Shown: positions 6,675-43,986 of the stretch, piece by piece
How positions within the stretch are numbered: the first letter of the stretch is position 1
Layout: each line of letters starts with the position of its first letter
IMG/VR virus record: IMGVR_UViG_3300048838_001252
Span: 1-64,000 of that record
Length of the DNA: 64,000 nt
Reading direction: 5' to 3' (one strand)
Source: a virus
Position numbers and translations under genes: made by a program
Notes under the pieces: generated by a model
What the model was told of the DNA's origin: nothing
Database searches by the model: none
What the model saw: only the letters and a program-made list of their open reading frames with translations

Positions 6675-9164
6675 TTATCCTGATGCATATCCGTTTTTAA
6701 CTTCCAAGTCCCTTTGTACACGGGCATTTGGACGATAGGTTTTTTGAAAGATTTTTTCACCATCAATTTGCATTGTTATATTACTTACGACTGCAACGTT
6801 TTTATCATTAAATTCTACCTTTAAAGGTTTTTTTAACATATTAGCGAGTTCAGTAAGTGCACCCCCACCTCTAATATTTGCTTTTGAAATACTTGCAACT
6901 GCATTTTGAATTGCAATCCAGTCATCTTTTGTACCTTTCATAGATACACCCATTTTTGCAATTGAGTTAGCAACAAGAGCAGTTGCACCAGCACCTATTG
7001 CTACAGCAGCCATTACTCCGGCAAATGCACCAATACCTAATGCACTTAAAGGATTACTGAATAAAGCAAGTGAACCAGCAATACCTGCAATTCCACCAGC
7101 AACCATCAACATATCTTTTCCTGCACCCTTCGAAGAACTAACAAGTGAACCAAGTCCTTCTGCCATTTTTCCAATACCTTTTGCAGCTAAGTTTATACCA
7201 AATCCGATACCAACTGCAGCAACACCAAGTGCTAATAATCCAACTGCACCAGCAGTACTTGCACCAGCAGCAGCAGCAATAGCTGGGGTAAATGCAAAAA
7301 ATGATGCAGATAAAGCCAATACTGTTGCAGGTAATGCCCAGATTTGTGTACTATCTAATGCACTCATTGATTTTGCGAGTTCGCCTATACCTTTTGCTGC
7401 CAACATTACGCCAGCACCAATACCTGCAGCAGCAGCACCGACACCAGCACCTGTTCCAAGTGCTTTCATACCAGCACCTTTGGAAGCAGCACCTGCACCA
7501 ATACCTCTACGTTGTTCAGCTAAACCGCTTGGACTTCCGGGAAGAACAGATGCAGTACCAGCATTTCCAACACTTCTTCCAACACCAGCACCTTTAGTAA
7601 CCCATTTTTCAATACCGTGATTAAATTTAGTAACTACACCTTTCCAAATTACAGCAGCAGCAATTAAACCTGCACCCGTTCCCCATGCGCCAATTGATTT
7701 AGAAAAGTTTGTAAGTGGTTCTAAGATATTTGTTCTTGTCCAAGTTAATGTTTTATTAATTGTATTTAAAATTGGTAATAATGTTGCTTTTAATTCATTA
7801 AGTGTTGCTTTCAGAGTTTCTTCGAAGGTCATTGCTTCTTTTGCACGTTTTTCTAAACTCACAGTTTCTTTGGCAAAACTTTCTGCCTGTGCTTTTGTTA
7901 AATTAGCAACATCTTGCATTTTACCAGCAAGTTTAACTTCAAATCTTCCGGTTTCTTTATTAAATATAGCAGCACCTTCAATAAGTTCTTTTTCCTTATC
8001 ACCCAATCCCATACCCGCCATTTGTTGACGCATTCTCTGAATTTCTGCCTGTCTTTCAGCCATTTCTGTTAAAGCACTGGCTTCCATACCCAGAGATTTA
8101 GCAACAGCAGCAAGCCTATCACGGTCGGCAGGACTAATAAATTTCTCAAAACTACCATCAGCCATTTTTCTAAAGGTAACAACACCCTTAGTCATTTCTG
8201 TAATTTTTTCAGTAAATTTTGCCGGGTCATTACGAGATAAGAAAAGCATTTCGAACGGGTCGGTTTTTGCAAATTCACCACCCATAATCTGTAGGTTTGC
8301 AGCTAAGTCAATAGCACCTTCAAGACTTCTGGCAACATCAGCAGCATTAAGTGCTTGAGTAATATCTACTCTGAACTTTTCAGCATAACTTGCCATTTGA
8401 GCAAAACCCTTAACACCTTGTTGAAAAGTATATGTGTTTAATCTTTTAAAATTATCATTAACATTTTTTAATACTTTAGTAGTATTAACACCCATTCTTT
8501 CAGTTGTGTCTACAACACCCTGAACATATTCCATTGTAGACCTTGCATCAAAACCCATTAATTCAAATTGTGCACCAAGACGGGTTGCTTGTTCGATACC
8601 TAAACCAGTACCTTTACCAATTGCAGTAATATCCCTAACCATTTCTGCAGATAAAACACGTGCTCTTCCAGTTTCATCAGCATATCCGGTCATTATAGTA
8701 CCAACATCTTCAAGACTACCACCAAGACTTGCAACATATCCAGCAGACTGTTCAAATGAATCTCTCATTAGTGCTGCTTTAGCACCGGACATTCCTAAAT
8801 TAAGAATTGTTGATTTAATAATTTTGTCTGAGTCCATTAAATACCTGAGTCCCAGACTTATTTGATGATTTACTTCTTTAACTCTATCAACAAGTTTTTT
8901 TCTATTATTAACTTCCTTTTCTAATTGAGTATTAATTCCTTTTTGTCTGTTTTCAATTTCTTTTAAGTATTTTTCTTCTTCTTTAGTTAAATCCTTACCT
9001 TTACCACGAAGTTCAGCAATAATTTTTTCATTATTGGCAAGAATTTCTGCTTGACTCGCTCTGGCTTGCTCAATATTATTAAGAGCCAATGCTATAGTTT
9101 TTTGTTGTTCAAGCAAAAGATTTAATTCACGAAGTTCTTTAATAGTATCTTTATTGTCTGCCAT
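6675..9164 (-). CDS. Tail tape measure protein
   Basis: An 829-residue protein with tape-measure architecture. Residues 1-110 are highly charged and predicted coiled coil (ELRELNLLLEQQKTIA...). The middle is helical, and roughly residues 500-760 hold long Ala/Gly-rich hydrophobic stretches such as GAGVGAAAAGIGAG, expected for the part that enters the host membrane. Tape measure proteins set tail length and are ejected ahead of the DNA. It sits directly after the gp26-family gene and its frameshift frame, the position expected of a tape measure gene behind tail assembly chaperones. It has its own late promoter. At about 0.15 nm per residue it would suit a tail of very roughly 120 nm; that figure is an estimate. 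Confidence 0.8.
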   Translation of the reverse strand: MADNKDTIKELRELNLLLEQQKTIALALNNIEQARASQAEILANNEKIIAELRGKGKDLTKEEEKYLKEIENRQKGINTQLEKEVNNRKKLVDRVKEVNHQISLGLRYLMDSDKIIKSTILNLGMSGAKAALMRDSFEQSAGYVASLGGSLEDVGTIMTGYADETGRARVLSAEMVRDITAIGKGTGLGIEQATRLGAQFELMGFDARSTMEYVQGVVDTTERMGVNTTKVLKNVNDNFKRLNTYTFQQGVKGFAQMASYAEKFRVDITQALNAADVARSLEGAIDLAANLQIMGGEFAKTDPFEMLFLSRNDPAKFTEKITEMTKGVVTFRKMADGSFEKFISPADRDRLAAVAKSLGMEASALTEMAERQAEIQRMRQQMAGMGLGDKEKELIEGAAIFNKETGRFEVKLAGKMQDVANLTKAQAESFAKETVSLEKRAKEAMTFEETLKATLNELKATLLPILNTINKTLTWTRTNILEPLTNFSKSIGAWGTGAGLIAAAVIWKGVVTKFNHGIEKWVTKGAGVGRSVGNAGTASVLPGSPSGLAEQRRGIGAGAASKGAGMKALGTGAGVGAAAAGIGAGVMLAAKGIGELAKSMSALDSTQIWALPATVLALSASFFAFTPAIAAAAGASTAGAVGLLALGVAAVGIGFGINLAAKGIGKMAEGLGSLVSSSKGAGKDMLMVAGGIAGIAGSLALFSNPLSALGIGAFAGVMAAVAIGAGATALVANSIAKMGVSMKGTKDDWIAIQNAVASISKANIRGGGALTELANMLKKPLKVEFNDKNVAVVSNITMQIDGEKIFQKTYRPNARVQRDLEVKNGYASG

Positions 9165-9184
9165 GTTAAAATTATTCTGTTACT

Positions 9185-9193
9185 ATAAATACA
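9185..9193 (-). promoter_or_regulatory. Late-promoter element (TGTATTTAT variant)
   Basis: Minus strand, 20 nt before the tape measure ATG at 9164; overlaps the tail of the upstream terminator hairpin. Confidence 0.65.
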
Positions 9194-9195
9194 AA

Positions 9196-9221
9196 AGACC
9201 GAGATTTTATTTTCCCGGTCT
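9196..9221 (-). terminator. Terminator-like hairpin after the gp26-family/frameshift unit
   Basis: Minus strand AGACCG, a 14-nt loop, CGGTCT, then TTTTG. The stem includes the last codons and stop of the 59-residue frame, so it could also influence translation there. Confidence 0.5.
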
Positions 9222-9386
9222 AAAGTTTATACTGTTTTTTTGTTTATCGTGTATTTTCTCAATTTCCTCATTTTCTTTATTAAGTAAAAATAGAAAATGT
9301 CGTCTGCGATATATCGGTAGATTTTCTATATAATCTGCTTGAAACTTAGCGTGTTTGGTCAATATATATATCTCTTCGTTGACCAT
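9207..9386 (-). CDS. Small frame downstream of the gp26-family gene, likely reached by -1 frameshift
   Basis: A 59-residue frame from an ATG at 9386: MVNEEIYILTKHAKFQADYI..., helical and charged (ENLPIYRRRHFLFLLNKE). It resembles the short helical T-type extension found after tail assembly chaperones. The same frame is open upstream of the ATG through the end of the gp26-family gene (PKHLAGEYKK precedes the Met), so it can be reached by a -1 shift at the T run 9417-9425. It could instead be translated from its own ATG. It is shorter than typical gene-calling thresholds. Its place between the gp26-family gene and the tape measure supports a chaperone-like role. Confidence 0.6.
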   Translation of the reverse strand: MVNEEIYILTKHAKFQADYIENLPIYRRRHFLFLLNKENEEIEKIHDKQKNSINFRPGK

Positions 9387-10321
9387 TTTTTTGTATTCAC
9401 CCGCTAAGTGTTTGGGAAAAAAAAATCCAGACCGAGAGATAAATACGCATCAAACTTATATCCATCTTTGGCTTGAAATTCGTATTTCATGTCAATATCA
9501 GGACTTACTTCCAAGATTTTTCTACGAATGGTTACCGCATCCAAAGCTGGCATTGCATCTACAAATTTATCAATATATGACCTATCTGTTTTTTCATTTA
9601 TTGCAACAATATGTGCCTTGAGTTTCATGGTATTATAATCGCTGTATTCATTACCATATGCTTCTTTAATAGATTCGGCTTTTTTAAATAACTGAGCATC
9701 TTCACCAGAAGTTAACAACCTGAAAGTCACTAACTTTTTCCTCATTGGTATTTCTACGGTAAATAAGCCATTTGCGTTTGGTTTTTCGTTTACCTCTTTA
9801 TATCTCAATTTAAGTAAATCTACTGTTGATTGAAACTTAACTCCGGTTCTGGGGTCTGTTACTTCTACACTATAATCAGCACCATAACTACTGGTACGAA
9901 GAAAGAGAATAATTGCATTTCTATCTCCATTTAATAGTTCATTTGCATTAATACCCGGAGTTTTTATTTTTCTTTTTAATAAAATATTAAGAATTTCACC
10001 ACTATCAATTAATGAAGGTGTTGTTAAAAGGTCTTCATCTCTACTTGTCATGTATTCAACATCGACTTCTGAAATACCGTGTGCATAAAATAAACCCTTT
10101 GAAGGTAATTGAACAATTTCGTATGAAGTCATTAAATCCGGGTCAGTTTCCCTTGACATCATTTTTTCATATTCTTCTGGATTAAAAACAGGTGCTTTTG
10201 GAATTGTATGACTTGTTGCTGATTGAATGTTTTCACCTGAAGCATCACCAGTACCTTCTTTAAATTTCTTGATTACATCCGAAATATTTTCTTTTGGCGG
10301 TAAATTACCCTTTTCTCCCAT
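9207..10321 (-). CDS. Predicted -1 frameshift fusion of the gp26-family protein (about 371 aa)
   Basis: The zero frame ends GAT TTT TTT TTC CCA AAC ACT TAG. The nine T at 9425-9417 contain the slippery heptamer T TTT TTC. A -1 slip there continues as TTT CCC AAA CAC TTA GCG and stays open to the TAA at 9209-9207, adding about 66 residues to the body. This mirrors the classic G/G-T tail chaperone arrangement directly before a tape measure gene. What is seen: the open -1 frame, the slippery run and the gene order. What is inferred: that shifting happens in vivo. A homopolymer sequencing error joining two true halves is the main alternative. Confidence 0.55.
9404..10321 (-). CDS. gp26-family baseplate/tail assembly protein (zero-frame product)
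   Basis: A 305-residue protein. The segment MTSRDEDLLTTPSLIDSGE followed by ILNILLKRKI is the hallmark of the T4 gp26 family (T4_baseplate): a membrane-free helical protein needed for baseplate hub assembly. The N-terminal 60 residues are low complexity and charged. The C-terminus reads LGLDFFFPNT, encoded across a run of nine T. The neighbouring tape measure gene and the -1 frame behind it suggest it serves as, or doubles as, a tail assembly chaperone. Its own late promoter lies 34 nt upstream of the ATG. Confidence 0.7.
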   Translation of the reverse strand: MGEKGNLPPKENISDVIKKFKEGTGDASGENIQSATSHTIPKAPVFNPEEYEKMMSRETDPDLMTSYEIVQLPSKGLFYAHGISEVDVEYMTSRDEDLLTTPSLIDSGEILNILLKRKIKTPGINANELLNGDRNAIILFLRTSSYGADYSVEVTDPRTGVKFQSTVDLLKLRYKEVNEKPNANGLFTVEIPMRKKLVTFRLLTSGEDAQLFKKAESIKEAYGNEYSDYNTMKLKAHIVAINEKTDRSYIDKFVDAMPALDAVTIRRKILEVSPDIDMKYEFQAKDGYKFDAYLSLGLDFFFPNT

Positions 10322-43961: not shown

Positions 43962-43970
43962 GGTATTTAT
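43962..43970 (+). promoter_or_regulatory. Late-promoter element (GGTATTTAT variant)
   Basis: Followed by AT, 16 nt before the ATG at 43987; divergent to the element at 43907. Confidence 0.7.
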
Positions 43971-43986
43971 ATTTAAAATCAAAAGA

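Follow-up and report, generated by a model that had tools for sequence, protein, structure and literature searches.

A tail assembly chaperone of the T4 gp26 family is very probably made here as a short and a long form, the long one by −1 ribosomal frameshifting at a run of nine T's near the 3′ end of its gene. The window, the 64,000-nucleotide stretch analyzed, covers positions 1 to 64,000 of IMG/VR virus record IMGVR_UViG_3300048838_001252. In it, the gp26-family gene (9404–10321, minus strand) ends GAT TTT TTT TTC CCA AAC ACT TAG, with GAT at 9427–9425, TTC at 9418–9416, and TAG at 9406–9404, and direct reading gives a T run of exactly nine nucleotides (9425–9417, minus strand). After a slip, the −1 frame would read CCC AAA CAC TTA GCG GGT and continue past an ATG at 9386 (17 nt beyond the stop of the gp26-like gene) to a TAA at 9209–9207, a length of 69 codons after the three phenylalanines and about 66 past the zero-frame stop; the ATG-started frame inside this stretch (9207–9386) encodes 59 residues. 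The gene ending and the open −1 frame down to 9207 are as an earlier note on this DNA described them. The slippery site, the conserved −1 coding, the covarying RNA, and the homology discussed below are all read from sequence. The features at the junction are:

9404–10321, minus strand: TAC-N, the zero-frame gene of the predicted tail assembly chaperone, T4 gp26 family, 305 aa (PF12322, PHROG_150, AlphaFold plus BFVD)
9416–9425, minus strand: slippery sequence TTTTTTTTTC (phenylalanine codons fixed in 64 distinct relatives)
9425–9419 and 9422–9416, minus strand: the in-frame heptamers T_TTT_TTT and T_TTT_TTC, respectively
9207–9415, minus strand: TAC-C, the −1-frame extension after the predicted slip, 68 or 69 codons plus stop (conserved −1 frame, helical model, PHROG_634 in relatives)
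9344–9409, minus strand: RNA element starting 6 nt downstream of the heptamer (fold predicted for the window; pairing and third-position covariation in 59 relatives)
9409–9402 with 9351–9344, minus strand: outer stem of the RNA element, 8 bp
9385–9379 with 9362–9356, minus strand: inner stem of the RNA element

Comparison with relatives supports this signal in several ways. Some 160 loci were collected from IMG/VR scans and phage records, and those at 50% identity or more, which formed one group (SH-aLRT 99), were taken as close relatives; codon tests used 64 distinct close relatives, which fell into 51 clusters at 80% nucleotide identity and had pairwise identities down to 51%. First, the junction phenylalanine codons were TTT in 64 of 64 sequences, TTT in 64 of 64, and TTC in all 61 of the 64 that had phenylalanine at the third position, as compared with 66–90% TTT in six other conserved phenylalanine columns of the same gene. 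The third codon stays TTC although TTT is the commoner phenylalanine codon (76%), which preserves a proline in the −1 frame. Second, four forms of the T run occurred, eight or nine T's long, and every one of them contained one or more in-frame T heptamers. Third, the extra domain lay in the −1 frame in 84 of 84 close-relative loci of the split type, the window included. Across the relatives, then, synonymous changes do not interrupt the T run and conservation extends to the −1 frame, which is the pattern that the earlier note had proposed to look for. As in G/GT-type systems, frames that are open in relatives overlap near the 3′ end of the gene at a conserved slippery site; as in −1 signals generally, an X_XXY_YYZ heptamer (T_TTT_TTC) is followed after a short spacer (6 nt) by a structure, here a pair of covarying stems. 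The suggestion of a G/G-T-like −1 signal was thus largely right, with the T run kept, the −1 frame conserved, and covarying RNA following at the usual spacing.

The conserved two-helix RNA element downstream of the slippery site is well supported by pair counts. In the predicted fold of the window, an 8-bp stem starts six nucleotides past T_TTT_TTC, and a second stem lies within its loop; taken alone, this fold was unremarkable (z −1.3). RNAalifold consensus folding of the relatives did not recover the two-stem element, the only helices it returned being ones that involved the T run, and the structure was therefore tested by counting pairs directly. In 59 relatives, 88.2% of cells were paired, as compared with 22–46% when partners were slid, and 46 cells were changed on both sides, as compared with 22 in shuffles. 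The key pairs join third codon positions to third codon positions. An Ala/His pair was GC in 32 sequences, AU in 16, GU in 6, and unpaired in five, and a Val/Leu pair was CG in 28, UA in 15, GC in 2, AU in 1, UG in 1, and unpaired in twelve. Canonical third-to-third pairs numbered 242, as compared with 210.9 ± 3.7 (maximum 221 in 1000) when synonymous codons were shuffled among sequences. We call the element well supported rather than proven, because relatedness inflates these covariation tests, because the structure was taken from the window's own fold to begin with, and because RNAalifold missed it. At three loci (L016, L017, and L029), the predicted fold was a GC-rich competing hairpin directly after the T run.

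This element bears on a different origin for the long product, in which RNA polymerase would slip on the nine T's and some transcripts would carry one more U. All close relatives of the split type have at least eight consecutive T's, as polymerase slippage would have it, but a covarying RNA element at 6-nt spacing is expected for ribosomal and not for transcriptional slippage, and the eight-T forms still hold an in-frame heptamer. We consider polymerase slippage very unlikely.

Also very unlikely is a separate small gene, the 59-residue frame being translated from its own ATG (9386), perhaps by translational coupling. An ATG was present at that codon in 52 of 59 relatives, with A-rich sequence ahead of it, but the −1 frame is also under protein constraint upstream of the ATG, where TAC-C begins PKHLAGEYKK. 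From the zero-frame stop to the internal ATG, 64% of codon differences were synonymous in the −1 frame, as compared with 4% in each other frame; on the two sides of the ATG, the −1 values were 64% and 68%, as compared with 4–12% in other frames. In the remaining seven of the 59 relatives, the ATG was replaced by TTG, TTA, GTT, ATA, or CTT, and three of these seven, L048, L054, and L089, had no ATG, GTG, or TTG anywhere in the −1 stretch. Moreover, the extension was modeled as helical (pLDDT 88), with residues 5 to 25 as helix 1 and the methionine inside it at position 14, and a start at the internal ATG would cut this predicted helix. A separate gene also leaves the fixed phenylalanine codons unexplained. 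The constraint before the ATG, the missing starts, and the helix running across the methionine therefore argue against a separate ATG-started gene as a general explanation. A sequencing error or decayed gene, the true sequence being one continuous frame, has a negligible probability, because 64 distinct sequences drawn from many metagenomes share the split, 60 with an unchanged distance to the stop, and because protein-level constraint acts on the −1 frame, even though homopolymers are error-prone and one relative, L095, has a continuous frame. Both the independent ATG start and the sequencing error were rejected on the evidence of the relatives, and −1 ribosomal frameshifting is the reading followed below.

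Searches with the two parts of the protein point to the T4 proteins gp26 and gp51. The 305-residue TAC-N matched Pfam PF12322 (E 7e-8; 32.9 bits against a cut-off of 24.5), as did all 45 members of set A10, and it matched PHROG_150 (E 1e-7); its AlphaFold model (pLDDT 83) had BFVD matches to T4-like baseplate hub assembly proteins, with E-values down to 3e-24. PHROG_634, the T4 gp51 family ("baseplate hub assembly catalyst"), matched the extension in 10 of 39 relatives (best E 2e-4) and residues 315–366 of the fused L095 protein (E 7e-5), which identifies a long form with a gp51-type C-terminal domain through the relatives and L095. The window's own extension had no significant match to PHROG_634, and its gp51-type membership thus rests on the relatives. 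T4 gp51 itself matched PHROG_634 over residues 147–246 and PHROG_150 over nearly its whole length, and T4 gp26 matched PHROG_150, so that gp26 and gp51 fall in one family by their profiles; gp26 accordingly corresponds to the short form and gp51 to the long form, both of which would come from one gene here. Profile searches of PDB sequences yielded nothing of use, hhalign comparisons with single T4 proteins were weak, and Foldseek found no significant match in the PDB, where the HK97 tail assembly chaperone 2ob9 ranked fifth (E 1.8; TM 0.45 by target length).

We infer that most ribosomes would stop at the TAG and release TAC-N (305 aa), and that a minority would move back by one base at T_TTT_TTC, or at T_TTT_TTT, which overlaps it, aided by the RNA structure six nucleotides downstream. 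The predicted product of the slip, TAC-NC, would have about 371 aa, its last part being a helical domain that corresponds to the C-terminal end of T4 gp51. If the lambda gpG/gpGT pair is a guide, these proteins would act as tail assembly chaperones, with TAC-N binding the tape measure protein and TAC-C recruiting tail tube subunits. The lambda system resembles this locus in the position of its gene just before the (here probable) tape measure gene, in a −1 shift near the 3′ end, and in a short main product and longer minor product (here predicted); it differs in its slippery site, which is not T_TTT_TTC, and a covarying RNA element lies downstream here.

Among T4-like phages, the 2022 study of Vladimirov, Gautam, and Davidson is said to have found frameshifting conserved in several groups, with T4 using genes 26 and 51. 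According to a 2016 review, long-tailed phages other than T4 conserve the G-T frameshift (PMC5009743). The earlier note had considered such a frameshift not typical of the T4 gp26 family. This does not hold, as T4-like tail assembly chaperones had already been identified (Vladimirov, Gautam & Davidson, Virology 2022, 566:9–15, according to passages in PMC10274946 and PMC12846349), and polyT sites are described as −1 signals in TAC-N genes of T4-like phages in a passage of PMC12846349. With frameshifted T4-like chaperones reported before, the locus here is a further case of a known system, with the same gp26-family TAC-N, gp51-type C-terminal domain, and polyT slippery site. It differs from T4, which has the short and long forms as separate genes 26 and 51, and it belongs to a group of uncultured IMG/VR phages, for which the RNA element is described here. 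A passage of PMC12846349 likewise describes, for the Vandenendeviridae/Andersonviridae chaperone (phage Adele), a conserved −1 shift at a polyT sequence, GTTTTT, with the −1 frame open in all genomes; those phage families are other than the present group, and the likeness lies in the frameshift. The present case adds a broad group of uncultured phages, some of them on contigs of more than 300 kb, to those with frameshift-made tail chaperones.

The direction of the shift appears to have changed within this family. Of 75 distinct loci that are more distantly related, 73 had the TAC-C domain in the +1 frame, and the junctions were mostly TTT TTT TGG CC (41) or TTT TTT TAC CC (23). Mel-JY01 and Flavobacterium phage immuto, together with many IMG/VR contigs, have homologous TAC-N and TAC-C and the same FF-x-P junction, but they carry TAC-C in the +1 frame, in most cases following TTT TTT TGG or TTT TTT TAC. 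Either a +1 or a −2 slip would reach that frame, and a +1 slip would fit more of the variant sites. The tree required four changes among the three states, as compared with 27 in shuffles. We think it likely that one homologous chaperone family switched the direction of its programmed shift, with −1 at T_TTT_TTC and the conserved RNA element here and +1 (or −2) at TTT_TTT_T in the sister group; the family would have retained its long product and changed the way it is decoded. Possibly new are the conserved RNA element and the sister group that has the domain in the +1 frame; our limited literature search found no earlier report of the covarying element or of the −1/+1 switch, which falls short of showing that none exists.

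Two distant loci, L108 (within an otherwise +1 group) and L011, had the C-terminal domain in the −1 frame; they have long branches or a longer linker and were left uninterpreted. In L095 (2324–3457), TAC-N and TAC-C form one continuous frame with the junction GAG TTT TTT TTG CCC, and the 95.5-kb contig has only one such gene; this frame is a natural fusion unless it is an artifact of assembly. One chaperone family thus offers a natural comparison of routes to the long form: a −1 shift, a +1 frame, two genes (T4), and a fused frame (L095). Current annotation misses or clips the C-terminal domain, for example in Mel-JY01 (L007:4728–4964) and immuto (L008:4827–4937), where it is entered as a separate or clipped hypothetical protein with no frameshift annotated.

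Three further features lie at or beyond the end of TAC-C:

9196–9221, minus strand: terminator-like hairpin at the TAC-C stop (1 found, 0.1 expected)
9184–9192, minus strand: GTATTTATA motif, candidate promoter of the next gene
6675–9164, minus strand: probable tape measure gene, 829 aa (place, size, and hydrophobic segments at aa 572–736)

The gene following TAC-C is probably the tape measure gene, judging by its place and shape. A long frame began about 44 nt after TAC-C in 48 relatives. The 829-aa protein resembled an annotated tape measure protein only weakly and matched no family in Pfam or PHROG, and tblastn with this gene and the gene after it found no phage match. A hairpin similar to that at the TAC-C stop, with compensating changes, was present in most relatives, and the chaperone and the next gene may therefore be separate transcripts. 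The GTATTTATA motif, likely a phage promoter, stands just upstream of the next gene, in keeping with the earlier description of a stop adjoining that gene's promoter. It occurred 15 times in the window, as compared with 1.4 expected (a second example is at 43963–43971, plus strand), and 13 of the 15 copies sit 4–61 nt before a same-strand ATG frame. The motif resembles the reverse complement of the T4 late promoter TATAAATA.
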